Below the pieces are notes generated by a model, which saw only the letters and a list, made by a program, of their open reading frames with translations, was not told where the DNA came from and made no database searches. A program made the position numbers and the translations under genes. A stretch of DNA of 64,000 bases from Saccoglossus kowalevskii (lineage: Eukaryota > Hemichordata > Enteropneusta > Harrimaniidae), in NCBI RefSeq assembly GCF_000003605.2, contig NW_003123425.1, positions 138,267 through 202,266 of the forward strand, given 5' to 3'. This document shows, piece by piece, positions 16,728-63,773 of this stretch; the first letter of the stretch is position 1; each line of letters begins with the position of its first letter.

Positions 16728-19700
16728 CTGCAAAAGGAGATGTTCAACATATTATGTCGCCGGTTTAGATGGAGGATGTATGTAGGAATTAATACGCCAA
16801 TGTAGCATAAGTATGTGTTCATGTGAAGACGATTAAATCAACTAGACAAGTATTTTATTCTACCAGACCATATACAGACAGGGTTTAGCCAAATACGACT
16901 TTCAGGAAGAGTACTTACCATCCTCCTGCACATAACCAGAATTGTCATATGTCACTACACTCTGTGTGAACTGGGTGCCATTTGTATTTGTATCACCAGG
17001 GACTGCATACTCTTGATTTTTACTTGTCTGTTTACACTGACATTTCACAATAAGTATGAATAACAGGATTGCTGCAATGCCTAACATCACACACCCAACT
17101 ATGATTCCTGTTGTGCGGGAGCTATCATTTGGGACTAAATTGTTGCATGTACTTCCTTGCCAGTCACTGCTACATTTACATTTGTACCCATCACCAGTAA
17201 TACTGCACTCCCCGTCATGTTGACACGGATTTGGTTCACATGGATCTTGATCACGACATTTGATTCCCATCCAACCTGCTTTACAAGCACATTCATACCC
17301 TCCATCTGTACGGCTACACACTCCTTCATTCTCACAGGGAGAGCTGCTGCAGTAGTCGAACATCTCGCATTTGTCGCCATAATACGATAAGGTGCAAGTA
17401 CACAAGAATGTACCTCCCCCGGCCTTACAGGTACCCCCATTGTAACATGGGTTCGGTGCACACAGATCATTCTGATCACATACCTCACCCTCAAAGCCGT
17501 ATCGACAGTGGCAGTTGTATTTACCCTCAGCATCTGGTGTGCAGGTTGCTCCATTCATGCATGGCATGGAGGCGCATTCATTCACTATGTCACAGTGTTT
17601 GCCAACATGGCCATCATCACAATCGCATTCATAGTCATACATCATGAAATCTCTACATGTCCCAGCATTGCATGGTTTGTTTTTGTAGCAGATACTTTCA
17701 TACTGGCATAAGTTTCCAAGATAACTTTCTGTACAGTCGCACATTACATCGCCATCATTACATGTTCCCTCATTTAGACACGGGTCATCGTCACATGGAT
17801 CAACAGGTGTGCACCCTTTGTCTCCAGCATTCATTCCAGGAGGACAGGTACAGTTATACATATCACCAATTTCTAAACAGATTTCTGAATCATCACACGT
17901 GTTATTTGTGCAAGGCGTTGTACAGCCTTGCATCAGTTCGGTTGGTTCTCCTGCTACTTTTCCAATGGTTTCACCAAAGCCAATGTAAGATTTGCCAAAT
18001 CGGGCATCTTTCATGCATCCTATGAAATCACCATGGATCACCCCAGTAGACATGTCATATCTTGCTCCTATGACAACTCCCGATGATTTGTCAACCTCGA
18101 GGTCAGTGTAATCACCAGCACTGCCTTCAACACGTCGACATCCACTACCATTGTCAAGAATAATCTTGAAATATGAGCGTGCGCGATGTACAACTACAGT
18201 GTGCCACGTGTTATCATTCACTAATATACTATCCAATGACAGTTGGTGTTCTCCGTCACCAAGGTCATACTTAACTGTGACATATCCATTCATCAGTTCT
18301 ATGAATATGTACTCTAAACCTTCTCGCATTTCAGCAGATCTGATATGCCCCAACGTAGCATCGCTCTGCTTTGTACGAAAGGTAACTTGATAGTCTGATA
18401 TTCTGGAATTGGCTACACCATCCTCTAAAGTGTATTGTACGTAGCTTCCGTCTCCAAATGTGTACTCAGGCGTAATCTCGTCACAACTATCACCATGGTA
18501 ACCAAGCTGACACACGCATCTGTGTGAAGATCCAGCTGCCATACATTCTCCATTCATACATATGGGATTAGACTTGTCGTCATAACAATGATGGTCTGTA
18601 GACGTGCATCCATTTTCACTATTCATCTGAAATGCAGGATTTCCTAAATGATATAGATTTCCATCAATGTCAATTGCTCCAATGCACCCGTTAAAACCAT
18701 CAGTCATTTCTGTTGGATACGCATAGCTACTGTCTATGCCTCCGACTTGCAAAGGTGTATTCAAGTACAGATTCCTAGAACGATAACAGGAACATTTGAT
18801 TACAAATTAGTAACAGATTGCCCTCACACTTATCAGCAATACAACAGCATAGCAGATCCTAACTTTTGACCCAATTTCGTTTTCAATCCGTGATCAAGTC
18901 TGAGCACGCAGAAAACATCATTATATTTTCTCTAAACGTTTTAGTTAGGCCACACTGATTTAATTTTATGGATGACATCCTCTGGAGACCCCAAAACCAA
19001 TGCGAGAGGGCAAAAAAAAAAAACCTGCCAAAAAAAAAAAAATGCTTCTAAAACCACAGGACTACGAAGCTGGTATTACGAATTGAACCACAGAACACAA
19101 TGTATCAAAAAACAACAAGAAGTCTTTATTTGTAGGAGGCACATGTTGATATACACATCTCGTACTGTATTACTGTCACAGGTATAACCATTTCAGACAA
19201 GCTCTAGTACATGTAGTCATTATGAAGTACCTTCAGTCAAAACACTGCATTCAAGGTACAACATGAACATCATTTTCAGTACAAGTCAAGGCGGAATGTA
19301 CATATCACTACTTTATGACAATAACTAAAAGAACATTGCAATGATACAGAAATGTCCTTGCTTACTCCTCTCTACACAGTAGGGGTTAGCTTTAACCAAT
19401 CTCTCGTATAGCTGTGTAAACGTCACAACTCCCTGGCCGACGTCAATTGCGTACCAGTCTACAACAATCCCTCAGTTTTTTCTCTGAACTTTTATGCTCA
19501 CGTATTCCCGGCAACGCAATACGCATATGCAGAAGATCATTTACGACAAAATTGGCACGTTTTAAGATAGTCCAAAAAGAGTTTAACGACAAGCCGGCGC
19601 TTTGCGACGATATAAGTCGGCAAGTTCCGGACAGAAAACCGATCTGTGGAGGCTCGTCGTCGGAGATTTTTTTTTTTTTTTTTGAGAACAGGCGAAAACT

Positions 19701-22700
19701 AATGCGCGCGTGGATGTCATCCATAAAATTAAGTCGGTGTAGCCTTAGTAAAAAAAAACTTACATGTTTGTTTCGTCCAAAATCCCATTGATTCGACAAG
19801 TTGACGTATCTTCTTCCCGGTAAGTTGGATATTCCATGACAGATGAAGAAATACAGAAGTTAACCATTAGTTCAATTTCAGATCCACTTTTCAAGATTGT
19901 GATGAGGTGCCATCTTCCATCACTAAGCTTAGACGATTCAGTGAGTTCCAAGTCTAGGGATTGTGATCCAACACGAATACTCAGCTTTGGTCGTCCCTTG
20001 ACCAGTCTCAAAGCTATGTAGTCACCTTCGTCAGTAGTCATCGGACCATTATAAAAAATCAATCCATTTTCCCTTGATGTCAGAAACTGTATACGTATAA
20101 CGGAATCCTGGCAGATCTCCATAGCATCATACCAGGCGTAGCTATTTCCTGAAAAACTTCTTTTTGTGCTTTGGCACCTTGGGGACGAGTAACCTTCTGG
20201 GCATGCGCATCTGTAACCGCCTTCAGGCGTCGGAAAACATGTTCCACCATTGAAGCAAGGATTCATATCACAAGAGACTTCCACGCACGACTTGGCTTTA
20301 CACTCGCATACCGCAGTCTGCTTCACAGTGAAGGGAACGGACAAGGACACGTTCTTAGCACCCATTAACACTTGACTGGTTTCTAAAGAAGATACGACGG
20401 AGCATGACTGTCCAGGACAAGTGGACTCGTCTTGGCATGGGTTGACAGTCACACTCTGGATGACGATACCAACATCTTCTTCAATCTGAAAAGTCAAATT
20501 ATTATTATTATAGACTAAGTGTACAAATTACAAAGTATCACAATGAAATGTACACAAATAAATTGGCATGACAAAAACAAAAACAATACGTATTTACCGA
20601 ATAAATATAATTTATAATAGTAATCTCACAGCTCAGAACAATAATTGATACAATATGTTTTGATTGCCCATTACGTGTTCCCAAGTTATGCGTAAAATCA
20701 ACAGGACAAACAAATGTCATGATAGCGTCGTAGTCACGTCAAAAGATTTCGTGGATCTATTGGACAAATTAAAGCGAAAGTATTTTGGGTATTTTCGCAC
20801 TTAATACATGTGCTATACAAATTTTATGAGGGTCAATTTTGATGACGTAATATTTTGGGTATTTTCGCACTTAATACATGTGCTATACAAATTGTATGAG
20901 GGTCAATTTTGATGACGTAATATTTTGGGTATTTCCGCACTTAATACATGTGCTATACAAATTTTATGAAGGTCAATTTTGATGACGTAATATTTTGGGT
21001 ATTTCTGTACTTAGTACATGTGCTATACAAATTTGTTGAGGGTCAATTTCGATGACGTAACGCCATATTTCTTTCTGAAAGATCGACATTTCGAACTATA
21101 AAAAATAAAGAAATTTCAAAATAATTTCGATTTTTGCGGCAGACGTTCGGTCCGCGCTCTTCAGGCAATACGAGAGATTTCACAGTGAAACGAAAATAGT
21201 CTATTTTTGACGTTTTTTCTGTATAACCCCTGGAGTTACGAAACAGTAGATCTCAACAACTGCATATGTCGGTGTAATGATTTCACTACTTCACATTTAT
21301 AATATTAGCTTATGTGTATAAAAACCCATGACAAAATACCAAATAGAATTAACTGAGTTTTGTTTTGACAGACACTAAATTCCATTCCGAGGCTCAAAGG
21401 AATACAAAACGGGATACTTAAAATACGCCCTCTAGCGACGAACATTTTCTGACATGTTAATGTGGGGGCGCCTTTCACTGTGTCGATGATGTTTGTCCGT
21501 AAATTAAATATAATGTTAATATTTTAGATAATTATTACGTTCTAAATAATATGCATATTGTCACGATCGTTATCCGTTAACAAAAGGCGCGACTACATAA
21601 TAATATCGTTTCATTTCAATAAATAAAAAAATAGCTTGCACCTACCTGATTTTTGTTTTTACCTAAGATGGCTTCCGAGGCTGTTGCTTGGTAACCATGT
21701 ACGCTGTAACTGACATCAAACAGGTTGTCAGAGGTCAGCATCACTCCGACCTCGTTATCTGAGTCAGTTCGAACATTTTGGACACCAATAATATAGACTG
21801 AGTTGCTGTGAACTTTGAAAATGTTCGCCAGTGAGGCGACAAATCTCCCCGCTTGTCCTGCTACCAGAAAGTGTTCTGCCGAACCCTCTAGTCGAGTTGT
21901 TGTTGTCTGGGTTACAATGTCCTCGAAGAAATATTTCACGTTGATTTCTGCTGTGCAGTTTTCAGTTGGGTGGATGTCATCTGACACTTCAACGGTGAGC
22001 TGATATACGCCCTCTGGAGTTTTGTCTTCGATTATAATGTTTCCAGTACCTGTCTCCACCTGTATTAGTGTATAGGTATAATGCTCACTGTATGTATTTC
22101 ATTAATGAAAAAGGCAATTTCTGCTCAGATGGCGCATTTTTTTTCATACCATGCGGGTTTATGTGACGTGGTGCTCTCACTCTCGCCTGATTAGTGGGTG
22201 GAGTAATTTGTAAATACACGAAAAGATGAAGTGGAGTACTGTGAGTAAGATGTTCTTTTACTGTATTCACCACAGTCAGCAAGGGAATAGATACATCGGG
22301 GGGGGTATTCACCTTGATTTTGGAGAGCTTTTTGCCTCCCTAATTGGGGTCATAGCATCGGCGCATACCTGCCTACTACAGCGATGGAAGTCCCTCGGGA
22401 GATGCATATTCCCACCACCGAAAGTTTCTACTAAATGGCACTGCTCTACACGATGCCCCTCAACACATTTTCGAAATGTTGTTTTCATTGTCAACAGTTT
22501 ATGAAAGTACTAGTATTCGCAAATTCTGATGTTCCCTAGAGTGGGTTTAATGATCAAGGGCAGGACGGTAGACATTCATTTCACCTCAGTGATCACACTC
22601 AAGGCGATATGTACCAGTTTCGGGTCAAATATACATTTCATAAAATGTTGTATCACGCATACCTGAAAATAATCCGTTTCCGTGAGCAGATTAAATGTCT

Positions 22701-25700
22701 TGTCCCCGCTAACTTTGTCGTCTGGGTCATTACAAAATATTTTGCCTACAAAGCCATCTTTTTGGGATCGGCCGCGATATTGGTATACCGTAGCTTCCAA
22801 GTGGCCAGGGCTATGAGGATTATCGTTCATATCGTCTATCACAACGGTGACAGTGCTCGTTTCTGTCATGTTCCCGCTGTCTGTGATCGTGATCGGTAAA
22901 TAGTAAAATGCCTGTTCCTCACGGTCGAAAGTCGTGTTAGTCGTCGTTATATTTGCAGTTTCTGTAAAAGACAGTACGGGTATCGTTATTATATTATAAA
23001 CAATATCCAAATTACTCTGTTTTATCTTCGGAAAAACGAATTCTATCATTTGTTGGGTCCTATGTTATACTTTTAATAAGCATAATACAATTCCTTTGAT
23101 GCCTCTCACGATGTATATCTCTCATTCATTGGATGACAAGTTATTGGAAATAGAAAATGTTCATATTTGTTTGCAACACAAGAAACAGTATGCGTTTGAA
23201 ATATATACGTGAACACTATAATGATAAGTATGCAATAAGTCGCTGTACCAAAAACTCCGGGCGCATCTGTCCGAGCAATATGCATTCAAATATATATATA
23301 TTTATTAAACAGGGGTAGAAATGGTACCAATTTGTTTTCTTATACATTTTGAAACATATAAAAACGTTTCCTCAAACTTAGAATAATCACTGTACCCAAT
23401 TAAATAAAACGAATTTCGCCGGGATGTCACTCCAATGAGAGTTTACAAAATTAAATCAGACTAGCACTGCTGTGTTTTAAACGATGTATGTCTTTGGGTG
23501 TACTGGTACTCCATAAAAATTTCACGTATGAAAAACTGAAAAAATAAATGCATGTCGCAAAAAGCAGCAACCTCTCCGGTTTCTGTCGGAGCATGTAAAA
23601 ATGTGTATAGATAGTGACCATTGTGCGTTGAACATATTTTAATAATCATACCACCATCTCCATTTTCCAGAAGAGTAAAACGATCATTTTCATCGGAAAG
23701 CGTGAAGCTAAATGGCCAACCATGATCTACATCGGCATCAATAGCTCTGATAGTAATGACAAACTGCTGAGTTGCCACATTTTCTTTTATCAAGGCGTTG
23801 CGAGAGTGTTCATCCAATGTAGGAGCATTGTCATTGATGTCTGTGACATTGATTGTACATAACGTTGTCCCAGTCCTTGGAGGAGAGCCTGGAATGATGA
23901 CGAGAAACCGATTACATAATGCAAATATATAAAATTAAGTAAGCATACACGCGCCAAATACACAATTAATGCAATGTGTCCTCTAATTTGTAGTCTGACA
24001 GTCTGACGTGGCGGCCGATAGTTACTGCGCCCTCACCGACGGATTCACTATAGTTTGCGTCAAAGTGAATCCATCGGCGAGGGCGCAATAGCTATCGCGG
24101 GCCATGTTAGGCTACCCAATTTGTTACTCTATACGTTCTTTGATACCTCTTCCGCCGTTACTCGATAAGCGATCCTAGATGTAACCAGCCTCGTTATGGT
24201 CTCAACCCGATGTTTTAATGGAAATAAAAACGTTCGGTTTTATGCATCTTACAACGGCACAGCTGCAACAGCTACAGTCGTAAATAATTGCCATCAACTC
24301 ACCATGATCTACGGCAAAAATTGTTAAATTGTATTGTTCTTTTTCTTCTCTGTCCAGACTTCCACTGAGAGTAATCACACCAGTCATACCATCGATATCA
24401 AATATTTCACTGTTTTCAGAAATCATGTATCTAATAAAATAAAAAGAAACATTGAAGTTTGTATCTATTGTAGAAGTACATGCTCCATACATCGATGATC
24501 AATTTCCTGTATATAAGAGTATGTTACATTTGTATGAAAAACGTCCGTCGTTTCTAGGCGATTTTACAAAATTTTGGATAGCGCATATTTTAGGCAAGCA
24601 CGTCTTAATGAATAGCATACTCACGTTATATTAGAATTGTCACCAACACGGTCGGAATCAGTCGCAACCACAGTGCCGATGTATTCTTCCGTCCCTGCAT
24701 TTTCCTCGGAAGCAAATTGGTAATTAAGTTCGGCAAACTCCGGGTCATAAAGATTAGCATCGACGAGTCTCAGTATTAATGAACTATCAGATTCAAATAT
24801 GCCATCACTTACTTTCAAAGTTAGGTTGTATTGTTCAGGATCGGTGCTGATATTGAGGCTCTTTAAGTAAAAATAAAGAGTTATTAAATACCTTTAATAT
24901 GTACCGTCATATTATAAATCGCGCCCCCTAGTGACGAAGCGCTTTTATGACGTCAATGGTGACATGAAAGCTGTTCAAAGTGTCGATATCATTTTTATCT
25001 GTAGTGTCCATCAAATTTTGAAGATTATGTTTTTTCAGAGATTCTAATGTATTCTAGATGACTAATGACGACAAAACCAACTACAGTGATCGACTTCAAC
25101 GACATCGCCTTCACCCATACACGTAATTTTGGCATCAAAAATAACCCCGTCACTAGAGGGCGCGATTTTTAGGAATGGAAAATGGAATAACTATAGTGCA
25201 GATACTTCATATTAGTACTACATTTGCAGATAGCAGGATTTATATGCTTTAGGTGTCGAATGAATACGTATTGTTATCAGTCATTACAATATATAAAAGT
25301 GTGATATTGAAAATCGCCAAAATTAAAATTGATCTAACTATTGCTACACTGGACTCACTCGTGTTAGCTTCACAGTTGCTGTGTTCATAACTGGTCCGGC
25401 CTCAATATCAAAATGACTAGTACTGTCACCATTCACTATAAAAAATGTGACATTTTTATTGACGTCATTATCCATCGCTGACACGACATATACGTCATCC
25501 CCAGCAACCATATTTTCATAAAGCTCGGCGTAATACAGATCGTTAGTAAACCGTGGGGTCTCGTCATTGATATCTGATAGAAAGATTGTTGCAGTGGCAC
25601 TACCTGGCAAAAAAAGAAAAGCATCTGATAAACGAACTGTGATGGCGCATTACTTTTCTCTGTCGTATAGATTGCGGCTGCGCGCCAACAAGAGCTGTTG

Positions 25701-27852: not shown

Positions 27853-30605
27853 CCTGAATGGAATAATATACCGTTTACCATTGGTGTATTTCAAATGGTT
27901 GTACGTGAATGTGTTTTTCTAGTACCGAACTGAAGTTTCCGAGGTCCCCCGACGCCAGACAATGCCTGACGTCAGAGTTTATATTTGTAACTCAAATTTG
28001 TATTCGTCATGGAGTTCATTTTTATAACTTCTCAGATTTAAATGATACAAATGTCCTCTTAGCCGGTAGTCAGTTTGGTCTCCGAGGTTGGACGTTTCTA
28101 ACATTTTCGCAATTCGTACAGTTGTGTCTACTGAACTCAACGGTTCAGTTCTTTCCAGTCGCCACTCGAAACATCTGTTTTGACTTGATAAACCCATACG
28201 TCAAAGAGAAATTTACATTTAATATTAATCTGTAAAGTCCCATTTACCCGATTTCCTTAAGATTCTTTCGTATAGTCATAGGTGTTAGTTATGAAACCAT
28301 AGTGAAATAAACGCACAACATGCATTTTTCTAAAAGAAAAGTCAACAGCCAAAAGTCTCGATTTTCCATGTGCTAAATTTAACACTACCGATCAACGCCA
28401 GCACAGGTGAATATATGTCGTATTGCTAACGTATAAACGCAATTATATATTATGGCATGACAACTATTTTTGTTTGAGTTATTGATATGACGTATATTAG
28501 TATTATTACTCTACGACATGATATGTATCTCCGGCATCGCCCTGGTAAGTTATCGCAGACTCGGAGTTGAGGGCGCTTTAGAAAACAACAAGGTGACAAA
28601 TGATACACGCCCCTAACATTCAGTCGATACGCATCGTTATTAATAGTGTTGATTTATTGTCATATAAATGCTGAATAACAGCAATAAATAATTTCGCCAA
28701 CTTAAGTATGTAAGGGCTGTTGATAATTAAATGCACAGCAGTAAACGCCTTTCCCTAAATTGCGGACAAATGGAGCAAACATTAAAATAAACTCTGTGTG
28801 ATTTCTTGCATAGTACTAGTATTTGAAATTACTCTCATCGCCCACCAATCCCTAAACGAAAAGATTACGTATGTGTGCATGTTTTAATTATCAACGGCCC
28901 CTAACATGAAATGGCACACTGTGTAGAGTTCAATTGTTAGTTCCTTGGGGTGAGTTAGTGTCACTGTAAAACTGAAATGTACATAGATACCATGGTATGT
29001 CGGTGTCTTAACAGTGCTTAAGTCTAGGACTCATGTCCGGGCTGTAATGGCGATAAATGTACATGATGCTAGCTTTGCTCGTACTAATTTTACAAATATT
29101 TTTTACTTTTATTTGCAAAAATAATACGCAGAGTGCCGTAATTTTATTTCGAGTATTTGTTTTTTCATTTGCATATGAATAACAACATGTGTATGATAAG
29201 ATGGATCTGATGTCGATTTAAACAATTACACGGTGTGTTTTGACACTGGATTGCGGCTGCAACCTCAGATCATGTGTCTATTAATTTTATGCGAAATTTA
29301 TAATATTAGATGTATGATCTTAACTTTTCATTTTTAACTTTTTTTCAGTGCCTTCAACTATGCTGTCTGTCGTGTTGACTTCCCCCATTTATATGTGTTC
29401 GGAATCTATGTAGCTAATCTGAGCGCTGTTGAATAAACTCACAAATATTCGCCTCTGTTCCGAATTACTGCATGTCGTAATCATAAGGTTTAAATGCTGC
29501 TATCCAGTAAAAAGCGAATATCAGTGGGATTAAAAATTGAAAATTTTGCTTTAATTTCGCTTTCCAGGCAATAACCGGATTCGAATATGCTACAAGATTG
29601 GAAACAACTTGAAGGGTGCGGTATGGGGAACGTCACCTCGTATGTATGCGACGGTGGGAGGTACTATACTAGTGGAACAGCAAGTAACAGCCACTCAAAC
29701 GACAAAATGTCACACAAGTTGTGATATATGAAAGCTTGCATGACAAGCTGGAGTAATAAATCAATTCAACAATTCTCGGTGTTTTCTATCGTGAAAACAG
29801 TATTCCACGACACGCCACTATCACGTGATACGTTTTTTCATGTTACTAGTATGTTGGCGACTGGCTTCTATCGCCGTCCACTTTATCGGCGTAATTCACC
29901 CAAATCGTTCACGATTACTTTGCTCGAGTCCTGATGTAAAATGGGTGGAATGTGATGTATGTTTCTACGTCTGTGCGAATGTACACTGTAAGATATATTA
30001 ATTGTCCCTGCAATTCGGCGAGTTATATTACCCGGGTTGAAATATTGCGCAAGACTTGTGCACTTCACCCAGTTCCAAAACTCGGAGACTGTTGAAGGTC
30101 TTTTCCCTCACGTGCTTCAAATAGAAAGTTAAAAATAAGCCTTTATTTTAAGTAAATCTTGCTCCGAATATCAAGTTCCGTTCGAATCAGTTCAAATGAA
30201 AGCTAAAAAAATGGCGGTAACTTACGCCATGATTTTCATATACTAGTATTTCACACACCAAGTGTTGCGTTGATGCACATGCCGTCCAATCAAACGTCTA
30301 GCTGTGTATCACGAATTGCGTGACGTGCATATCGCTATGCTGCTTAACATAGACGAACAATTTACAAAGTACAACTAATACTTATAAGTTTCCAATTTGC
30401 TGCATGTGTGAAAGTTCAGCAGTAAAACTGAAAACGTGATCAATGATCACTTCACAATAAACCAGTAACGACGATCTCATACGGATGCATTAAAATACTG
30501 CAATGCTTCCATGGTTACAAACATCACTTACCTGCCTAAAATAAGTCGTTTTTAGAAGAACTGGGACGAGCCGCTACTCCTGAAATCAAGTGAGCTCTGC
30601 GACTT
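27853..30605 (-). promoter_or_regulatory. Putative 5' UTR exon and promoter of cadherin gene
   Basis: On the minus strand TTTAGGCAG|GTAAGTGATG gives a strong donor at 30535, and TTCCATTCAG before 27853 a good acceptor 20 bases upstream of the chosen start codon. A TATATA motif on the minus strand near 30634-30640 would put the transcription start near 30600. Inferred from splice signals only; no transcript evidence. Confidence 0.35.
28711..28904. mobile_element. ~195 bp TIR element (possibly hAT-type)
   Basis: TAAGGGCTGTTGATAATTAA at the left and TTAATTATCAACGGCCCCTA at the right are inverted repeats of about 30 bases including GCACA/TGTGC. AGGGGCCGTT-type ends resemble hAT MITEs, but no clear 8-base target duplication is seen. 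Confidence 0.65.
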
Positions 30606-32126: not shown

Positions 32127-35100
32127 ATGGGATCCAATCCAAGTACAAGTAAAAAACTAGAAGACACGACGTCTCAGGAGTCAAGTCAGCCTAAGCCACG
32201 TGACGATGAAAATGACGTAAGGAATGATACTATTTATAAATTCTTTCTGTTATATTATAACAATACTTTCGAAAAACTTGATTATGACAATTTCAATCCT
32301 GCAATGGTTCACAATTAAGGTCGTTATGCAAAATCTAACAATCGCAGCGATGTATTGTGTCCGACACGTGTGACCCATGTGCGTGTACATTGTTTTTTTG
32401 TGTGCATATAGATATAGATATAGCATATAGATATGGATTTTTCGAATGACTTGTATTGATGGAAGGTACTAGTAGTCTCAAATATTGGACTACAATTAGT
32501 AGCAATTTTTGGAAAGGTACTCTAGTTTGTTAAGGCTTCGCAAAAAAATGTTCTGGTCAAATTTCTTTTCAAAAATGGAAGCGACACATTTTGCAAGTCT
32601 AATTAATTCTTCAACGGAGGGCGCTTTACAGTGGCAGAATAAGTGAAAGAAAAGACCGGCTCGCCCTTTGTTTGGTGGTGCGCACGCCGAATAGAAATAT
32701 TCATTTTTAATCACGCCTAATTAATAATTTCCCTGTAAACACGTCCATCCGAGCCTCTCTGCAATATTGCTCTTGTAATTGTTTCATCACACTTATCTTG
32801 CGGTTTGCTTTGTATTTTTTCATTCTACTCCTTCCAAAATTGTCTTTGATTTTGGTGAAACCATGCGACCGTTCGACAACAATAAGGGCCATTCAAATGA
32901 TGGAGCAAAATAAATAACCACAAAGACATTTTAATATTTTTCAAGTTTCATCATAAAATGTTTCAAATACAGCAAAACATCCAGGGCTAATAGTTCAGAC
33001 AACAATCGATACGATGGAACGTTGTTGTATGTACATTTTCATCTAATACGTACTAGTATAAGGCAGATATTTTAATTTTTAGATGAACTTCGCGCGCTAC
33101 TATACTTGGCATCTCCAACGAGAAGAATGTGAGCAGGTAAGTAAATCAATAAAACACTCGAATCTGTGTACTACTCCTGTAAACACGGCTTATGGGCGAA
33201 GCGTCAACTTTGTTTGTTTAGGTGTGTTTTTTTCGTAGCAAATCTCCTAAAACATTATTGGTTATAGACGGAAAAAAGTCCGTAGAACAAAATATTTGGG
33301 CTCAATGAGCGGCTAATAATGAATTGTTACCGAGACGATTCATCGATGTTTCTATTTTAGGAAGGGCGTATTGAAGACCACCAAGATACCTTTGGGATGA
33401 ATGGAAAGGTAAACCACTCCCACCTAAATCAGATTAGAATATTACGCTCGTTTGGGCTTCATTTTTTTCTCAAATATATACTGTTTTTTTATGTTTTTAT
33501 TATTTAAAATTATTTTGAATTTGCTGGTAGTTTTGGTAATCGCGAATGTATGTGGCGTAAGACAAAATACTACAAAATAAGTTGTACATAATAAAACACA
33601 ATTACAAAACTATTTAAAAAACATAGTACATTTAAAATAAAATATACGGCAGATTTTTATCAGATTGCCCCCACTTCTGCTTTATTAATGATAATGTTAA
33701 TTTCAACAAATCTGACTTTGTATGCAAAAAAAGTGTACAATTGTGATCTTTGGAAATAGGCGCAATTTGTACATATTACGTCAAAATATAATCCACTTAA
33801 TTAAAGTAGCATTAAGAGAGCATTCCTAAAATTGCATTTCGGGTCTTGGGGCTATTATTTGATGAAATGAATTTGCGTGAATTGTGGGAAGTACATAATA
33901 ACACATAATAACGATTTCAACGCCTTTCTGTGAGTTCAAACTCGAGCTAGTCGGTGGTTGTTTCGGCTTCCCATTAGAGTGTGTGTTTGAAATTCCTTAA
34001 CTACATTTTGAATAGTGTTCCAACGTGTTTAGATTTACATAGCAGATAATATTTCATGGATTCCTTATTTTATTTTACTATTTCAACAGTTCATAGATTC
34101 TAATATGGATTCGCTTCTGTTCCGAATTACTGGCGAATCCCAAAATTTAACTTTAGACTATCCAATATCTCACATAATCAGACCCATATCTCTAAGTTCT
34201 ATGTATGCTCTCAGATTGCAACTTTTTCATAACTAAAAGTTCTATACATACTGTAAAACATGTTGAAGCGGCATATTATTTTAGCGAATTGTGGTAAAAC
34301 GACGTAATAGGGAAATATTGATTTATAGAATCTCTCTTGTCTTTGTTGATTTCCTGTTTTCGCAATACTTGTCTGTCGCCAGCCAAAACAAATGCACAGT
34401 TATCACCTACATAGAAACAAAGAAAAACTGTCAAGTGTAATAAGGAAGCCCTCCAGATTATTAGGTTTTCTGTGTTGTTTACAAAGTGTATGTGTGGAGA
34501 AAAGACGTTGTTTGGACGCCATTTTGAATTTTTAATGAAGTCATTAGCGACATCTTCAATTAGCGAATTAGCTCTCTCGCTAAATTCGCTAAAATACATG
34601 TCCGCGAAAAAGACATGTTTTGCAGTAGTATTTGGCCCGGGATTCAACCATAAAATACAATGGGGTATTACCAAAGTGCCATATTCCAAATTTAGTGCCT
34701 ATTTGTTATACTATTTTTGCATTTACACGACTTACATATCTCATCATTCTTTGCAGTCAGACGTCGAGCAGAGCACATTTCACCACGAGGACGGAACTAT
34801 TTATAACTGTATAATTGACGACGGACAGCGTTACTATTTCGACTCGAAAGACGAGCAGGTAAATTTTATTTGATTTGCTGTCCGGAGATTCATAACAAGT
34901 ATTCAAATTATCAACGCTGGAAACCTTATATTAGAATGTTAAAGGGACTGTTCTAGGGTGTTGTAGTATATCATGAAAACGTTCGCTGTCGGTACAGCAA
35001 ATGAGATTACAATCGGCAAAATTATTGCTGAAAGGGAGGTCACATAAGACACGTGGTTGCAAAATTGTAAGTGGTCACTATAGGCAGGTGGTCTTTATAT

Positions 35101-38100
35101 AGAGATGGTCACTAATCCAGTTTTCACTGTATGACAACACTCTCCAAGAATTGTTTCAAGTTGTGTGTGCTTCGAATTCTCTGTTAGATCTAAGCAGACT
35201 TTGAAAACGACGGTGTGAACTAATTCTACGCCACTGGAAGACGCGACGTTATGGCTTTGCCATTTATTTTGTATTTTATGTTTCGAATGTTAAATTGTTT
35301 CCCAATTAAGACATACAGTATAACAGGAGAAATACCATGTCGAATATAAGAATACAGCACTCAGAATAAGACGATGACAGAGGATCGCTTCGATTGTGAT
35401 ATTGCCATTGAGTAGTGCAATAATATATTGACTGCTTACAGGTTTGGAAGCCGTTTCCCTCGACGTGGCTGTCGCGAGGAACTCTGGTAGAAGGGACTCA
35501 CTACGATGGAGATGACATGGTTAGCGACCCTGGTGAAGGAATCAAGACTCGGATGCAATCTCCTTCACCTAAACTAGAGGCCAATGAATCATCTCAGGCG
35601 GTAAGATAGGTTTTAACTGAAATTGGTTTACCATCATCAAACTGGAGACAAGCTAATCTCTCACAAACACTAGTTTACATTGATGCACTATAATAGATTC
35701 AAATAGTAACCCGTAGTGACGTCGCAGAAGCAGTTAGACGTTAAAAGCTAGAAATGTGTGTTGTACACGATTCACGATGATTAGGGTTCTTGTTAATCAT
35801 TAAAAACATTAAACAAGATATAACCTCATTCAATAATGTTGTAATAAGCTAATACATTGCACTTCTCTCCTCTCCACCGCAGATGGCGATGTTGCTTGCC
35901 CCGGGAATGAAGACATTGCGACAGACAACTAAATCTCTGAGGATAGCAACCCAGCAGTTAAAATACACTTGTCAACAACATTTCACAGGTACGGTAGTGG
36001 TATTAATATAAGCATAGAACTCCTGATATGAATTAATATCCTGGATACCGTTTCGCTTGCTACGCTATCTAAATTTCGCGGTGATCGAGGCCGATGGTTT
36101 GCTAAAAATCATGTGATTCGATCGATCGTTTCCGCATACTTGCTTAATCTCGGGGCGGTCATCCTGTAATTTTCACAGCTGGAAATAGTCACGGCGCAAA
36201 CGACGGCCGAAATTATCAGAAAACTGTACTTTGAGATAGTTGTTGGGACACTCCTGGACAATGTGACTATATCTCCCTTACATGTGCAACTTATATAAAT
36301 TTGGTTCTTTCGAACATGGAGGTCTTTTTTTATCTACATGCTCCGGATTTATTCCAAATTGAGTTTGTGCTGTTTCCTTGAATTTTCACCGGCTTTGCTA
36401 GCCGCGTTCTACACTAGAGTTCATAGAAATACATGGTACAGTGGTGCGCGTCTTAGCAACGTATAATATTATGGGGCGTAGCTCCGCCCGACAATTTTAG
36501 TGTGATTACCAGTCGCTAATTTTGTGGTCAACGGTGATACATTTTGCCGATATGCAATAGGAACCATTAGTTGTCACGTGATAGAGGTACGACCCGACGA
36601 TGAATAAATTTACATGGTTAATGTCGCTAACAGATAGCGGAAGATTTCTGACTGTGATACGTGCCGTTGATTTATTCCTTGAAGTTGTGTATGCATTTTC
36701 GTCGAAGAGACTGACGACTTTCCTTTCCCCTATACTTGAGCGGCGCCCTGCGATCGGAACAAATCCAACATCGACAGAGGGCGCAACTCAAACAACTACT
36801 CGTATATCCGGCCAGTTAGTATTTAGTGTTGTGATTGTTGTCTTTTTATCAGAAATTAACAACTTAATACAGGACGCTGCCTTGAATTTGCCATCACTGA
36901 ACTCACCAATGACGTCACCTAGAATCACCAATGACACATCAGAGACAGAATTGTTGCGTTCGGCATACAGATTAGAGTGTCTGCAGAGAAAGAGTTATTA
37001 CAATAAGGTAATTACAGTCATATTAAATCGACATGCTCACATCAATAATATCAGTTCGAATCTAACAAAACCATATGTAATATCAGCGTGGCATACCATG
37101 TATTAAACAGTGTATATTGTGTACACAGTCGAGTATTATAGTAACTTTACTTGCAAAGACGTCACCTTCATTATGCCGTAAAGTAATATATGATGGGTAT
37201 CACGTGGGATAAAAGATGCGTTCACTTGGTGACACTTTCTGTATGTATATCATGTTGTCCATGCATCATTGTTAATCTTGAGTCTGTTGAAATGAGCTTG
37301 GGTCACTAAAATAACACCGTATACGGTTACGCCAAGTAACTGTGCACCATACAGAGTCATTTTTGTTTAGCAATATATTTAGCATTACTTTTCTTGAGAA
37401 AAATTTGCTTCGCAGAGGAAGAGATTCTGATGCTAATCAAGGCTCATCGTAATCCTGGCCTAGCAAGTATCTACACGCAAATGATTTTAGCGTTCTAATC
37501 GTTGTAAAATGTTCTCTTATTCGCGCATGCTTTATTCAACCAGCTTCAGGAGACAAAGGGGAACATCCGGGTATTCTGTCGTTGTCGCCAACTTGAAGGA
37601 GACAAATCCAACAAATCATTTGAGTTGTTGACAGACCAAGAGGTGATATGCAATGACGGACGGACTTTTAAATTTGATAAGGTGTTTCCACCGTTTGCAA
37701 CTCAACAAGAGGTAGGCAGCTTAGTTGAATTATTATTAGAATGGTGTAATTTTATAATGACTTATAATCAACTTCAAGTGAGATTAAACTCAAAATATTG
37801 GTGATAGATGTAGCGCGATTACACAATTACTTATTCTAGGTGGCGCTTTCATTTAATATTGAAGGCGGACAATAACAATTTCTTTTATATGTCCCCCGTA
37901 GTAGGCGGGCAATAACAGTTCAGTTTATACGCCAGCCAATAAACTTTTACTGACGTCGGATGTTTCGTTCCATTTACGGCGAGTTAAATTCCGACAGTAT
38001 ATAGAGGACGGGAAGGGGTTAGATCAAGGAACAGTTTTATATCATTGACAATATTTACTCATATATGCTGTTTTGGTGTAAAAATTAATATTACGATAAT

Positions 38101-41100
38101 AATCTACACAATGTTTACTTGCTATGAATTGGTTTTTAGTGCATTGTAATTTCACTGTAATCGTAACATTCTGTGAACCAACTAATGCAATCAAATTCAA
38201 AACTGAAAAAAACCTCTGTACGTTGTACTCTTATAGAAACAACTTAAAATGTCATCAATAACATCAACAATTTTTGAAGTAATAAACGAACATATAATTA
38301 TATTAATTATTGTATTTCATTATTGCATTTTATATCAAAAAAATACTTCACTGACGTTAAGTATGATTGGGGATATGAACTAAATGACTAAATTCAAAGT
38401 ACAATCAATCTACTTGTCCACAGGTATTTGATGAGGTTATGCCGCTCACCTTGTCGTGTATAGATGGATACAGTCTGTGCGTGGTAGGGTACGGACAATC
38501 AGATTCAGGTACAACATACACTCTACTGGGTACGCAGCACGAAGCAGGAATTGGTATCAGAGCGATTGGAGATATTTTCAAGAAATGCTCACAGAAACAT
38601 CTGGTGGATTTTGCATTCAAGGTAATTGTAAGATATTCATTGACGTCATGTCCTGGTCACGATGAAATCAATGAAATATGTGTTTCGAGTTTAATAATTA
38701 TTATTTGATCACATTTGACCACTTGATTTATGGTTAATTGACATTATTAAAACACGATTCCGATTTATTCTAGCTCTACCCTGGTTATACTTGTGATGCG
38801 ATGTGACGTTGATGTGTTATCACGTAGTTTGATCACTTGTAATGAAACATAATTTAAATAGAATTCTTAACTCCTCTATCTTCGTTATTTGTACCGGGGG
38901 TGGATATATTGCGACATATATTTAAACGGGCACTTCCAGTTAAGCCTAATCTCACAACAAATTTACTTTTTGGATTAAAATGACAATGGATAACAAAAGA
39001 TAGATTAACTTTGTAAACAACATAAACAATAGTGTCCCATGATTCTTTGGTGCAATCCCTGGGATTGGAAGCTTCCCCTTTAAGGTATTGAGTTGGTTTT
39101 GCCAGGTAATTCAGATTTGATTATTTGTCCCCATGATGATTGCATTTGCCTACCACCCCCAACGATTTATGTGTCAAACTTGTTCCACATTTTAGCCGAT
39201 CGGAGAGTCATGTTGGTGTGTGTGGGATATAGCATTAAATTTACACAAATTTATTTACACTTCTGGTAGGTACTAAAGCATCATACCACAAATCGCCCAC
39301 AAACATTGTCACTGTAGATACGATCTTAATCGCATTTAATCCGTTTGTCATTTATTTGTTCAATATGCCTAACCCTATTAGATAATATAATAATGAATAT
39401 AGTTAGTATTCCCTGACGCATTTGAACAATTCAGTTATTTAGTGATTTTGGTGTGCATACAATTCCGCACATATGTATACGTAATTGGTTTTTTTGAATG
39501 CATGGATTCAAACAATTAACATCAACTTGTGAAATACTAAAGCCTTTCGTCAGTCTGTAACAAATACATCACTTGCCAGAATACAATTATGCGAAATCAC
39601 ACTTCTCTGATTTGCTGTAAGATGTATTAATACTAATGGGCTTGTTCTGTATTCGCCCAGATAAGACAAGATAATAGCTCACTAAATTGACCGCATAATC
39701 GGTTCTAAGCGTTTGAGTCGCGGAGCGTGAAGTACCTCTAGTGGGGGCGCATTTTGACAAGATGGATGCGACACGGTCATATCACCTATGCCCGGTTACC
39801 TATTCTATTGTCGATTATTATTGTTTGTTAATATGCACGGTTCAAAATAATTTAATGTATTGTTGACAGTTTTCAATGGTCGAAATATACAATGACTGTG
39901 TGTACGATCTTTTGGGAATGGATGCACGCTCGAATTTAACATTACTGGATGACCCCAAATCAAGCAACGAGTTCATTGCAGATGGTGTAACTAAGGTAAT
40001 CGTCAAAGATGATACGGATGTAATGAAAAACTTAATACGAGGAATCCATGCCCGAATTAGCGGAATCACATCGACACATTCTTCAAGGTATGCTGTAGTG
40101 TAAATTGTCAAATCGCGTTACGAAACGATTTGTTTAGTATGATAGTGAAAGTAGTGATGTAAGCCGACTATGTCTATGGAACGTTTCAATAACCCACGGT
40201 AATATGTAGAGTCCATGGAAACAATGGATACTAAATATATCCATGACTTTCAATTTAACGCGTGGGTTAGGAATATGTTATACAAGTACCTTGAATAAAA
40301 TTTCAATATAACTGGCTGCTCTCGAAACAACGAGTTCGTGTAAAAGTGAACTAACCAAAGGGCGGCTGATTAGGTTCGATGAATTTAACGTAGATGCATT
40401 CGTGGTATATGGCACCCACCCCTCCCGCGCGACCAAATGTTCTTAAATATAAGAACAAACTTTCTCGCACTCGGCTATTATTTTTCACGACATGCGAAGC
40501 AGTATCGTGGACTCTCAAAATAGCGTCCCAGACTGATAATGTCATAAACCCTTGGATGGGATCTGCCATAGGTGACCGTTTTTTTTTTTTTAATTTCAGG
40601 AACGTGTTTAGATGAATTGTCATTACAATAGCGTAGTTTTGTAATGACTTATAATCAACTTCAAGTGCGATTAAACTCTGAACTAAATATTGATGATAAA
40701 TGTACGCGCCGTCATACAAGTACTTACTCTAGGTGGCGCTGTATATAAAATACACATGCTTTCCAACTAGTATATCATAATGATATGACCTTAGAAAAAT
40801 ACAAAACGCGTAACTGTTCGTTTGAAACTTGCATTGAATTGTAAATCTACTAGATTGTCCGTAATTTATATACGGAGAGGATATCTCATGGGACACCTGA
40901 CAATATCAGATTAATTAACCAATTATACTGAATTTAATGTAGGCTGAAATTACTGCGCGAGTTTAATTGTAGGGTAACGATTTTGATATCTTGATCATCC
41001 CAGACATCGTTTTGAAACGCTAGAATACAAAACTCGTAATTCATTAACGCGTATTCAAGAAAAATAACGCAAAATCGCCGACATTTGGCATATTTGAGAC

Positions 41101-42534
41101 ATCAGCCATGATATCAACAGTTCCATGTGCTTGTATAGACCATTCAGATTACCGGAATGCACATGATATGGACATACTGAAAACAAATAACGATCAAACA
41201 GTGATGAAAAGGAACGAACGTGGTAATAAATCGTGATATGATTCTGGGAATTTGTCGGCAATGCGAAATATCTAACTTTTAGAAAACAGAATTTATGAGC
41301 GCACTATGTTTCTTATTAGTTTGTTTCAAAAACGAATGACGATTCAGAAACGTGATACAGAATCATTTCAATAACTTTCATTTGTAACATATTATGTTTT
41401 ACACGTGTTTTGCTGTCCATAGTTGTAGATCCCATTTGCTGATAGCTCTACAGATAGGAGGTGTTAATAGAATATCCGGGGTTACAAGTAATGGCTCCAT
41501 TGCCATTGTCGATTTAGCGTGCACGGAAACCATCCATATAGGCAAAGGTGATAATTCTGGACAGAGCATGGTTGAGTCTACCACAGTGCACAAATCATTC
41601 ATGTCGTTGCAATTGGTAAGTACGAAAGATCCCTCTAAAGTCTAGAAAATGTTTTGCCGAAACCACACCAACAATTTCTATAAAATTGAAACACACATTA
41701 TAAAAATGTGTCAGTCTTTGCAGATCTCTGCCTTGGTCTGAAATTATCCAACTGATAATTGCTTTTAATGAGATGTTGTTTGTTTTGTTTTGTCTTTGCG
41801 CTCATTGCGCAGCGCAAGGTAAAGTTAGTGTCCACCCTCGTCAATGAAAGGAATGCGATGCTCATTAAAAACTTATACCTGTTGAAACTCTTGAAGTACC
41901 TCAATTTTGATACTAACAATTCTCCAAGCAAGTCCAATTCACATGAGACTTTCATTGTGACTAAGACAACCATAAAGCGAAATTATTTCTTATTTCTAGA
42001 AGGTAGCATTTTAGGCCAAAGATATACACGGACGCGGTAACCAGTAAGCCTCAGTCACATTAAGACTTTGGTCATAGTAATCTGTCGATATTTTCTGTCT
42101 CCAGGTGTTGAAAGCTCTTCGAACAAAGACAGGCACTGTGCCCTTTAATAATTCCGTCCTGACCCAGACATTACGACCATTTTTTGGACCGGACGCTAAG
42201 GTAATGTATATTTAGTTAATCTAGTATCAAGTTAACGTGAGCATGCGTAGGCACGAGAGTGTACAAACGAGTAGATGTGTTGGCAGAACTAATCATATAT
42301 TAATTAAAGGTATTACAAATTCTAGATCACCACATGCCGTCAAATTACGTAACTATTTTGCATTAGATATTTTCAAACTTATACTGTAACATGTTTTTCA
42401 CCCAGGTATGCTTCTTTGCTACTGTCAACCCGGAACAAGATCACGTGAGTGAAACGTTGAACACGCTAGAATACGCGTCTACAATTATAACGCAATCAAC
42501 ACCAGGAAGCGAGAAATGGGACCAACAACGATGA
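32127..42534 (+). CDS. Kinesin-14-type protein with degenerate nucleotide site (569 aa)
   Basis: Thirteen coding exons: 32127-32216, 33083-33136, 33361-33408, 34757-34858, 35442-35600, 35883-35988, 36853-37007, 37550-37711, 38424-38621, 39870-40087, 41423-41615, 42105-42200, 42406-42534; 1710 bases, phases consistent. Residues 1-238: polar N-terminus with short helical stretches, no known domain. 239-569: C-terminal kinesin motor fold, entered through KGNIRVFCR, the kinesin-14 neck/motor junction. Further motor landmarks: VEIYNDCVYDLL, CRSH (switch I region), VDLACTE (switch II) and NTLEYAS. The P-loop reads GQSDSGTT (316-323) where kinesins have GQTGSGKT, so the essential Lys is Thr; switch II DLAGSE is DLACTE. 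The protein probably cannot hydrolyse ATP but may bind microtubules or partner another kinesin, as Vik1/Cik1 do with Kar3 (inference). The ATG lies in an exon preceded by a CATCGACAG acceptor, implying a noncoding first exon. Confidence 0.88.
32390..32440 (+). repeat. Short ATATAG-type microsatellite
   Basis: Imperfect CATATAGATATAGATATAG run in the first kinesin coding intron. Confidence 0.6.
34249..34627. mobile_element. ~380 bp MITE with ~45 bp inverted ends
   Basis: Left TACTGTAAAACATGTT...TATTTTAGCGAATT; the reverse complement of the right end is TACTGCAAAACATGTC...TATTTTAGCGAATT. It lies in the kinesin intron just before exon 34757. A 137-codon minus-strand frame across it is a by-product of the element. 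Confidence 0.75.
37741..37860 (+). repeat. Dispersed repeat pair in kinesin introns (copy 1)
   Basis: TAATGACTTATAATCAACTT CAAGTG and the following ~75 bases to CTAGGTGGCGCT recur at 40630-40745. About 80% alike by eye. Unclassified. Confidence 0.65.
38630..39869. other. Large kinesin intron, nothing recognised
   Basis: AT-rich intron between the P-loop exon and the next motor exon. No exon or complete mobile element seen; one GTGGGGGCGC motif near 39743 resembles ends of the CTAGTGACG element. Confidence 0.45.
40630..40745 (+). repeat. Dispersed repeat pair in kinesin introns (copy 2)
   Basis: Second copy, with the same orientation and ends (TAATGACTTATAATCAACTT ... CTAGGTGGCGCT), in the intron between exons 40087 and 41423. 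Confidence 0.65.
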
Positions 42535-42599: not shown

Positions 42600-44150
42600 A
42601 GAAATGAACATCCGTCTGTTATCCCTAGAAGGGTCACAAGCCACGTTTCAAAAAAACCATGTGACACCTAACACATAGAGTTATGTCATGGACTATATTT
42701 ATGATAATTGCATTTAAACATCTGGAAATGAATATCAAACTGCAAATTGTGAAAAGTGAAAAGTTGAAGACTTTTTGGCATACTATTATACATGTATTAT
42801 ACTTGGTAATGGAAACTTCTGCCAGGTGAATATCAGTTACTGAACACATTGATTGCAGCATTAATATTATTTTAATAACATATTAGAAATACAGATATAT
42901 ATTATGAGTATTATTATCAAAATGTTTTTTGAGAGCGAGAGCCAGAGGGATTTATTTTGCTTTTCAAACAGTCTTTTATTCTCTCTCATCATCGCATCGC
43001 TGTCCATGATAATTGGAACGATGGATGAAATGACGGTAAAAATGGAACACCGTTTAAAGGGCAAAACATGTTTCATTTCTCTCTCGCAATAAACGATATC
43101 TCGGCGTTCATTTGCTTCGAATGTCCATTTCCTTCTACTTATAAGAATCAATAACTAAAGAACATAGAGGAAACACTTGTCACAATTTGATCGTAAAAAA
43201 GAGAAAAAAATGAGTTGTCCCACTATCAAATATGGGAACATTTTAGATGTCATTGTATTATATTTTTAGCTACACAAGCAATATCTTTATTATTATCTCG
43301 TTGTTATTTGTGGGTTATTATTTTATATTCTGTATTGAGTTATATTTTTGATTAAAATATGACATGTTGCAGGGAAGACCCGACGAGTAGGCTAAATCGA
43401 GTATTTTATTGATTTACTAAAAATATACGTAACTGTATAACGTCGAAGTGCTTGAAATGCGGCCCTCGAGTTAATCTATCAAGCGTGATTCGAGCGGGAT
43501 TCAAGATGGCGCCAGTCACGACTCGCTGCTCACCGGTTCGAAGCACCATTCAACGTTAAACTATTTTCAGCTCGCTGTTAGAAAACAATTGTCATATAAT
43601 TAAACAACATTACTGAATTACTGAATGAGCTACCTGGCTTCGCATAACTTGTAAAACACACAAAATGGCGCCGCCAATAATTTGACGTGGCCGTGTACCA
43701 TATTCTAAAGCTTAGGCTGTATAGATTTCTCCAATACTCCTTCTTAAACAGAGTATATGGCTGTATTATGTATCTGAGTTCCAAACAGGACATTGACCCC
43801 GTTGTACACGAGTTTGTTTTCGTATCCCTCTGTGTATGTGTCTATGACAGAAATCGCCGTTAATTATTCAATGTTTTCATACAGTATCCGTTATTTTGAT
43901 ATTTATATCATCACAACATTTCGGTTGGATGCATAATATACTTTAAATGTGATTCTGTAATGGGATCCTAGCAAAGTCTTATCAGTTCTAGGCATGTTTA
44001 TTTTCTTCCTATCAGTTCTATGTTATCATATTTTATTATCTGTTTACCAGGAAGTTAACTCCAGGGGATGATACGCACAATGCTGCTGGTACGGAAGCCG
44101 GTGATACGTGTCCTGGCTTTTCTTATTAGTATTTGTAAAGAGTCAGTGGT
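42600..44150. other. Intergenic between kinesin and Ig gene
   Basis: Kinesin 3' flank, then AT-rich sequence. No exon seen. The last ~150 bases before 44220 are the presumed 5' UTR of the Ig gene. Confidence 0.4.
43088..43093 (+). terminator. Candidate polyadenylation signal of kinesin gene
   Basis: AATAAA 554 bases after the kinesin stop codon, the first clear one seen downstream. Confidence 0.35.
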
Positions 44151-44219
44151 CTGTTGATATACACAGCCGGTCGCGTGGATTCCTTTGCTTGCTTTCCCAT
44201 CATAAACACCTCGGAAAAG

Positions 44220-45839
44220 ATGAAAACGAATATGTTGACCTTGTGTTTCTGTCTTGCGTGTATGATGTTTACCATCGCGTACGGACAGAGCTTCATCGAT
44301 GGGCCTGTTGATGTCGAACTAGTTGAACATAACACGGCTATATTGAAATGTAAAATTGGACCGGATCTAAACTTCGCCGAAGACGCTATGGGTGTTCTGT
44401 GGTACCACGGCGGCAAGCGAATTTATGATGAGGAATCTGCTAAGTACAAACGTATAACAGATGATCGTGGCCAACACGACCTCTTGATCTATAATATCAC
44501 GGAGGAAGATACTGGATACTACACATGCTTGGTGTATGATGTTCAACCACAAAAAGCCGGTAAGCTGACAGTCATTCCGTACCCTGTATTGACGGAAGAG
44601 CCAATCAACAAAACAGTTATCGTGGGCGATACCGCTATTCTGAGCTGCGTGTTTGACACGTTTAGCGAAAACCATTTTGACGTGTTCTGGCTGAAAGACA
44701 AAACTGTCATAACAGTTAACGAGACAATCAAGACCGACGCATTCCCCGACTCAAGCTGGAATAGATATTTCGTAACACGCAAGGACGATGGAGTTTATTT
44801 GACTATAACTGACGTGACTCTCCAAGATATGGCAGATTACTCATGTGGTGTCGCTAATAAGTTAGAGGAGGATTTTTTCTTGTTGTCAAGGGCGACCGGG
44901 ATAAAAGTTCTAATTCCTTCGCTGGAACTTCACCCTATATGTTTTCTTCATCAGAACTCTCGTCACTATAACGAAGACGATGAAGTAACAGCTAATTGTG
45001 TGTTATCTGGCAATACAGCCGGCGTTAGTTTATCTTTTCTTAAAAATGGTGAAACTATGACCGATTATAAAACACAGGGTAATGCAACATATATACGGCA
45101 AAGCGAGACATGGGCATTGTCGCCAAAAGACGACGGCTGCACCTTGACCTGTGTCGTTAAAACATCCACCGGCACGGATAATAGAATATGCGCGATAGGT
45201 CCCATCGATGTCAGATTCTCCCCTATTGTCGAAGTTATGATACTTCACGGAGACCCACTGCCAGGTCAAAACATCGACATATCGTGTGTTGTAAGCGCCA
45301 ACCCTGAAGTATTCGAATACAATTGGCTGATCAATGAACAACACATTTCTACTATCAATGACACACGGTTTGCACTGCGGGAAAATGGTCGATTGTTAAC
45401 GATAATAGACCCATCGACAAAATACAACGGATCAATCGTGACATGCCAGACGCACAACGCCATTAACGCAAGCACCGCAACATCGACCATCATGATGAAA
45501 CCATGGCCAACTTACGTGACTGCTGAACAATCAACTGTTGGCGTACTGTCCGTCACGCCGGGTTTGGACATAGCATTACACACGTGCCCCAGCGAGACAC
45601 TGTACATACGCATCTACATGCTAGCCAGTTTGCTGATTGTGTTCGTGGCGGTTACATGTTTTCTCTCTTACCTATCGTGTCGGCGCTACTACCGTGAAAA
45701 GGAGTTAAACAGAACTGAGGTGACGCCCTCTATCGGGGTGCGTTACCATAAATGCGCGGAGCCTATCGTACGTGGACAGCGCGAGGGAAGAGACAACCCC
45801 ACTATGTACGCATGCGACGAGATGGTATATTGTGCTTAA
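44220..45839 (+). CDS. Intronless Ig-superfamily transmembrane protein (539 aa)
   Basis: Single open exon. The start is taken at the Met followed by a hydrophobic signal peptide (residues 1-~22, core LTLCFCLACMMFTIAYG); an in-frame Met 22 codons upstream would bury it. Four Ig-like domains follow. Ig1: LKCKIG ... VLWYH ... DTGYYTC. Ig2: LSCVF ... VFWLKD ... DMADYSC. Ig3: ANCVLSG ... LTCVV, lacking the core Trp. Ig4: ISCVVSA ... YNWLI ... VTCQTH. Several NxT/S glycosylation sites. One membrane span near the C-terminus (ASLLIVFVAVTCFLSYL) precedes a ~55-residue tail beginning CRRYYREKE, with several Tyr. Likely a cell-surface adhesion or recognition receptor; I cannot name an orthologue. Absence of introns is notable beside such intron-rich neighbours and suggests a retrocopied origin, though introns in the UTR cannot be excluded. 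Confidence 0.85.
   Translation: MKTNMLTLCFCLACMMFTIAYGQSFIDGPVDVELVEHNTAILKCKIGPDLNFAEDAMGVLWYHGGKRIYDEESAKYKRITDDRGQHDLLIYNITEEDTGYYTCLVYDVQPQKAGKLTVIPYPVLTEEPINKTVIVGDTAILSCVFDTFSENHFDVFWLKDKTVITVNETIKTDAFPDSSWNRYFVTRKDDGVYLTITDVTLQDMADYSCGVANKLEEDFFLLSRATGIKVLIPSLELHPICFLHQNSRHYNEDDEVTANCVLSGNTAGVSLSFLKNGETMTDYKTQGNATYIRQSETWALSPKDDGCTLTCVVKTSTGTDNRICAIGPIDVRFSPIVEVMILHGDPLPGQNIDISCVVSANPEVFEYNWLINEQHISTINDTRFALRENGRLLTIIDPSTKYNGSIVTCQTHNAINASTATSTIMMKPWPTYVTAEQSTVGVLSVTPGLDIALHTCPSETLYIRIYMLASLLIVFVAVTCFLSYLSCRRYYREKELNRTEVTPSIGVRYHKCAEPIVRGQREGRDNPTMYACDEMVYCA

Positions 45840-61152: not shown

Positions 61153-63773
<2,621 letters not shown>

Follow-up and report, generated by a model that had tools for sequence, protein, structure and literature searches.

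An old, fast-evolving kinesin-14 paralogue with altered catalytic motifs in two acorn worms

What becomes of a kinesin motor once its catalytic motifs have changed? The question is raised by a gene of the acorn worm Saccoglossus kowalevskii, found at 32127-42534 on the forward strand of a 64,000-nucleotide stretch of contig NW_003123425.1 (positions 138,267 to 202,266; "the window"). This paralogue is old and has evolved very fast; its frame is open both here and in a second acorn worm, Ptychodera flava, and its catalytic motifs changed partly by different routes in the two species. We consider it fairly probable, and the likeliest reading, that it is an old duplicate of a klp-3-like kinesin that has lost motor function and would now be anchored to a membrane, serving without motility as a scaffold or regulatory partner. 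By "klp-3-like" we mean our own grouping of Ptychodera klp-3 (P0059), Saccoglossus P0159, and echinoderm, amphioxus, mollusc and fish copies.

The window protein has the layout of a kinesin-14, with a motor domain near its C-terminus (Pfam Kinesin PF00225, E = 4.1e-66) and a retained YNKLQE.KGNIRVFCR neck junction, and its top sequence matches are KIFC3, KCBP and Ncd, bearing out the kinesin-14 identity proposed in a first-pass annotation of this DNA. The three altered motifs listed there are in the sequence as described: the P-loop reads GQSDSGTT (codons GGA CAA TCA GAT TCA GGT ACA ACA), switch I HSSSCRSH and switch II DLACTE, and the nucleotide site is indeed changed at several core positions. 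The protein has probably lost the ability to hydrolyse adenosine triphosphate (ATP). We scored the patterns GxxxxGK[ST], NxxSSRSH and DLAGSE in 270 proteins from the matches listed in three protein searches, a redundant set including many fish KIFC3 isoforms, 269 of which align over the motor. Only eight of the 269 fail at least one pattern: the window protein fails three, the Ptychodera protein P0003 two, and P0031, P0032, P0037 and P0071 one each, while P0201 and P0215 fail two through gaps at the switches. Failure of more than one pattern without motif gaps is confined to the window protein and P0003, and the three-motif change in the window protein is more than chance. P0071, from Caranx melampygus, has a switch II of DLARSE in an otherwise intact klp-3 motor; it is a partial automatic model and may be an error.

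P0003, an uncharacterised protein of 484 amino acids, is the only orthologue of the window gene among the matches listed, where Ptychodera has one further member, klp-3 (P0059), with intact motifs. The switch II of P0003 is DLASTD, and in its switch I SSR has become RNQ, with six residues missing ahead of it (another alignment puts the gap elsewhere). The first-pass annotation had taken the P-loop change to be conserved, expecting the same threonine in orthologues and naming an intact GKT as evidence to the contrary; this sole orthologue carries GKT, in an intact GQSGSGKT, though both switches are altered. An intact copy is also present in S. kowalevskii: P0159 aligns with 77% of Ptychodera klp-3 at 74% identity. 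For Glandiceps we found an intact copy (P0158) and no altered one among the matches listed, in searches that are not exhaustive, depend on shared words and do not show the gene to be absent from other hemichordates; one of them misses divergent relatives, its own query members P0002-P0004 being absent among the 120 matches listed. Saccoglossus (Harrimaniidae) and Ptychodera (Ptychoderidae) belong to separate acorn-worm families.

In a tree of 44 rows picked from the 270 proteins, which we rooted on five KIFC3 rows, the window protein and P0003 are sisters (support 100/99), and the pair is placed within the ambulacrarian klp-3 rows (95/91). The branches are very long, with 1.7 changes per column on the stem of the pair and 1.89 (window protein) and 2.56 (P0003) on the tips, whereas the hemichordate copies with intact motifs have 0.06 to 0.15. 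Pairing each altered copy with the intact copy of its own species was rejected by approximately unbiased (AU) tests (p = 0.0005 and 0.0003), which rule out a recent species-specific duplication. A hemichordate-only group of all five copies stays compatible with the data (AU p = 0.19), but the altered paralogue may also predate the hemichordates. The two altered proteins share 22 residues that are present in at most one of the 42 other rows, whereas with any other row the window protein shares at most 5 such residues and P0003 at most 7; two long-branched intact rows compared as a control, P0085 and P0007, have 7 in common. Since a sister paralogue with shared derived residues exists in another acorn-worm family, the window gene is not a fresh decaying copy, and here the first-pass annotation was right.

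How much of the motor was lost? As an invariant set we took the 98 columns with at least 95% identity across the 42 intact rows. Of these, 67 are kept in the window protein and 63 in P0003, the lowest intact row keeping 88; with 31 of the 98 changed, and with the paralogue shared between species, we reject the view that errors in the sequence or very recent decay could explain everything. The two altered copies have lost 22 invariant columns in common, as against 11.1 expected under independence. Concentration of the losses on the ATP site was rejected: nucleotide columns are kept at 14/22 vs 48/71 in the remaining neck and motor in the window protein (Fisher p = 0.80), and at 12/22 vs 49/71 in P0003 (p = 0.30). 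Each altered copy has retained 11 of the 12 invariant columns of the neck and beta-1, and the stretch from loop 11 to alpha-5, which we take to be the main microtubule face, keeps 12 of 23 in the window protein and 10 of 23 in P0003. The presumed microtubule face is therefore eroded along with the ATP site, the neck being nearly untouched. A shared loop 11 insertion was considered and dropped, since by eye Saccoglossus has 2 residues more in this loop and Ptychodera 3 fewer.

Identical changes in the two species are limited to P-loop Thr to Ser and switch II Ser to Thr. Other positions changed in both to different residues (Saccoglossus/Ptychodera), namely the switch II Gly (Cys/Ser), the switch I Asn (His/Lys) and its second Ser (Cys/Asn). 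The P-loop lysine was lost in Saccoglossus only; in switch I, the first Ser and Arg changed in Ptychodera only, as did the switch II Glu. Because the shared switch positions bear different residues, ancestral loss of the switches is not shown, and an order in which switch II went first and differing further losses followed would be a guess from two sequences. Among the fold matches are, by title, kinesin-1 structures with a mutated Gly234 (9l78, 9l6k and 9l7e), presumably the glycine of DLAG. Could the protein still be an unusual active motor, using nucleotide through a rearranged site? Ptychodera does retain GQSGSGKT, and Saccoglossus the switch I Arg and switch II Glu, but in Saccoglossus a P-loop Lys to Thr change is combined with switch II Gly to Cys and switch I Ser to Cys, and at positions of this kind even one change upsets the kinesin cycle; we regard this explanation as very improbable.

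The gene structure is regular, with 13 coding exons, all 12 introns bounded by GT-AG and phases matching, encoding a C-terminal-motor kinesin of 571 amino acids. The 13 exons and matching phases of the first-pass annotation hold, whereas its length of 569 amino acids does not, and its span of 37550-42534 covers exons 8-13 only. Our model is 100% identical over 100% of its length to the annotated S. kowalevskii protein A0ABM0M7U7 (P0001 in our set; 608 amino acids, "Kinesin-like protein KIFC3-like"); that record and the window probably share one source genome, so the match is no independent check of the window bases. The 37 additional residues of the record are N-terminal, about 25 of them from an upstream exon that is probably not the conserved start. 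The parts of the gene, all on the + strand, are as follows; exons are from the gene model, with further evidence in brackets.

29587..29661, +, possible extra 5' exon of the public model, about residues 1-25 of A0ABM0M7U7 (tblastn of P0001 against the window)
32127..32216, +, coding exon 1, start MGSNPSTSKK, fits the N-myristoylation pattern (M38 column)
33083..33136, +, coding exon 2
33361..33408, +, coding exon 3
34757..34858, +, coding exon 4, first part of the DGQRYYFD...FPSTW box
35442..35600, +, coding exon 5, remainder of that box and linker
35883..35988, +, coding exon 6, helical stalk, shortened (predicted structure)
36853..37007, +, coding exon 7, stalk and neck helix (predicted structure)
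37544..37711, +, coding exon 8, end of the neck and beta-1, LQETKGNIRVFCRCR (11/12 invariant neck and beta-1 columns kept)
38424..38621, +, coding exon 9, altered P-loop GQSDSGTT (alignment)
39870..40087, +, coding exon 10, reaching the first half of the altered switch I (alignment)
41423..41615, +, coding exon 11, remaining switch I (SCRSH), altered switch II DLACTE, loop 11 and helix alpha-4
42105..42200, +, coding exon 12, loop 12 and alpha-5, TVPFNNSVLT (alignment)
42406..42534, +, coding exon 13, end of the motor, short C-terminus and stop

The TVPFNNSVLT of exon 12 corresponds to HVPYRNSKLT or HIPYRNSKLT in the intact hemichordate copies, and exons 4 and 5 together are predicted by AlphaFold to form a small strand-rich domain (blocks of predicted local distance difference test, pLDDT, 81-96). 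KIFC3 (PDB 5wde) is the best solved-structure sequence match of the protein (E = 8.2e-51) and among those tied best by fold; however, KIFC3 motifs are intact and the five KIFC3 rows split from the 39 others at 100/100 (where we placed the root), so the public name KIFC3-like is a loose one.

The N-terminus provides a further clue. We prefer the start at 32127 because the column of M38 of A0ABM0M7U7, from which this start was deduced, is Met in at least 90% of rows of a 42-row family alignment. Most klp-3-like proteins have a predicted N-myristoylation site at their very beginning, for example MGSGAS, MGNGAS or MGTGAS, and then a DGxRxYxD...FPxxW box, such starts being seen in P0059, P0158, P0065, P0070, P0078, P0082, P0004 and others, from protists to fish. 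Some protist members list Pfam accessions that we take to be EF-hand or WW domains. The window protein, with MGSNPSTSK, fits the MGxxxS start of the subfamily and has its first box (DDGQRYYFD...FPSTW), and this start, together with the habit of the subfamily, suggests a membrane-anchored pseudomotor. It thus shares with the subfamily the C-terminal motor, conserved neck, MGS start, box and tree position, but differs in its motifs, as the 37 other klp-3-like tree rows (without P0001 and P0003) pass all three patterns, and in lacking by alignment a second box, a CUE/UBA-like region and much of the stalk. A tblastn search with five canonical proteins (E up to 1) found no exons for the second box, the CUE/UBA-like region or the long stalk in the window.

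We propose that a klp-3-like kinesin-14 was duplicated before the split of Saccoglossus and Ptychodera, and that the duplicate then lost normal ATP-driven motor function, the intact copy P0159 having stayed in the same species. Its product, which retains the kinesin-14 sequence, the predicted fold, the near-unchanged neck-to-motor junction and a putatively myristoylated N-terminus, probably serves, without motility of its own, as a membrane-anchored scaffold or regulatory partner. The gene structure, altered motifs, shared paralogue and intact sister gene are observed directly; myristoylation and the scaffold role are predictions. The survival of a matching gene with a partly different break in Ptychodera makes it probable that the altered paralogue was retained for some task other than walking on tracks, and it would then be under purifying selection. 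A more detailed version, which we consider rather unlikely, is that of a membrane-anchored pseudokinesin that lost catalysis stepwise. Switch II and some of switch I would have gone in the common ancestor; later Saccoglossus would have lost the P-loop lysine and Ptychodera what was left of switch I. The outcome would be a fixed, nucleotide-independent state that may link membrane to cytoskeleton or restrain the intact klp-3.

Several results weigh against this proposal. With its normal P-loop the Ptychodera orthologue may still be able to bind nucleotide; in the public S. kowalevskii model the protein begins upstream of MGSN, so that the predicted myristoylation site would lie buried; and the AlphaFold input alignment of 42 rows contains 40 intact kinesins, biasing the prediction toward a kinesin fold. 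Placed alone, P0001 falls near the ambulacrarians with weak support and P0003 next to molluscs; these lone-row placements are unstable, and therefore only the sister relation is firm. Finally, about 45% of simulated neutral frames remain open at 0.01 substitutions per site, so that an open frame alone does not exclude recent decay.

This last point bears on the explanation that the gene is a relaxed, slowly dying paralogue without present function, its open frame a matter of luck or recent loss. The frequent survival of neutral frames at that distance would fit, as would the very long branches (1.89 and 2.56 vs 0.06-0.15 for the intact hemichordate copies) and the scatter of losses across the whole motor. 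Yet both proteins are complete over the motor and keep 67 and 63 of the 98 invariant columns and nearly the whole neck, and in simulations of neutral decay without insertions or deletions hardly any frame survives to 0.1-0.2 substitutions per site (of 2000 frames each, 2 were open at 0.1 and none at 0.2), making a dying gene improbable in our view.

The well-kept neck raises another explanation, that of a subunit resembling yeast Vik1/Cik1, in which the dead head pairs via its neck with the intact klp-3 (P0159) and serves as a microtubule foothold. S. kowalevskii has a possible partner, 11 of 12 invariant neck and beta-1 columns are kept in each altered copy, Kar3 is known to form such pairs (PMC4338441), and the Ptychodera altered stalk has a heptad signal, with 6 of 300 shuffles as good. 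Against this, the Saccoglossus window stalk has none by this crude test, in which 140 of 300 shuffles do as well, the alignment shows much of the parental stalk to be absent, and the stretch from loop 11 to alpha-5 keeps just 12 and 10 of 23 invariant positions. The heptad test is weak, the last 100 residues before the motor giving 62/300 in Ptychodera klp-3 and 2/300 in Saccoglossus klp-3. We judge a Vik1/Cik1-like role unlikely.

Among animals, KIF26B, which we take to belong to another kinesin family, offers a comparison. It is reported to lack ATPase activity, as the window protein may, and to be microtubule-associated (PMC3387196). Vik1 and Cik1, the partners of Kar3, illustrate that a dead kinesin-14 head can be useful: PMC4338441 describes a kinesin-14 head without the means to bind or hydrolyse ATP, beside a catalytic relative. 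The window protein differs in being still plainly a kinesin by its residues and in its predicted lipid anchor. The 50 fold matches listed include no Vik1 chain, the only row naming Vik1 being 4etp chain A, named Kar3 in the sequence search, and are uninformative on this point. A fungal pseudoKinesin-21 is named in PMC5076506, and non-catalytic or unconventional kinesins also figure in PMC12646758, PMC5590807 and PMC12692232. The window protein would be a variant among already known non-catalytic kinesins, and a search of open-licence papers found no paper on this gene. As the non-catalytic kinesin-14 heads in the literature cited here are those of yeast, the acorn-worm gene would be an animal example, and one in which an intact sister gene and a second species with partly different losses make the order of loss and the residual job directly testable. 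The gene further points to a kinesin-14 subfamily, ranging from protists to fish, in which most proteins have a predicted N-myristoylation start.

Within the kinesin gene, two similar stretches of about 100 bases, ATGACTTATAATCAACTTCAAGTG...CTAGGTGGCGCT, were noticed by eye in intron 8 (37745-37850) and intron 10 (40636-40740), and are perhaps a dispersed repeat. Just downstream, on the + strand, a 566-amino-acid stop-to-stop open frame at 44139-45836 has several immunoglobulin-domain matches. Elsewhere, the - strand carries a C-type lectin domain match (61612-62055) and a large gene from 16905 to about 27860 (end by eye) with EGF and laminin G domains (16905-18806 and 19763-20527) and a sub-threshold Cadherin match at 23464-23934. 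Two tandem arrays are present, one at 13264-14433 (414-base unit, 2.8 copies) and one at 20781-21060 (70-base unit, 4.0 copies, 94% matches).
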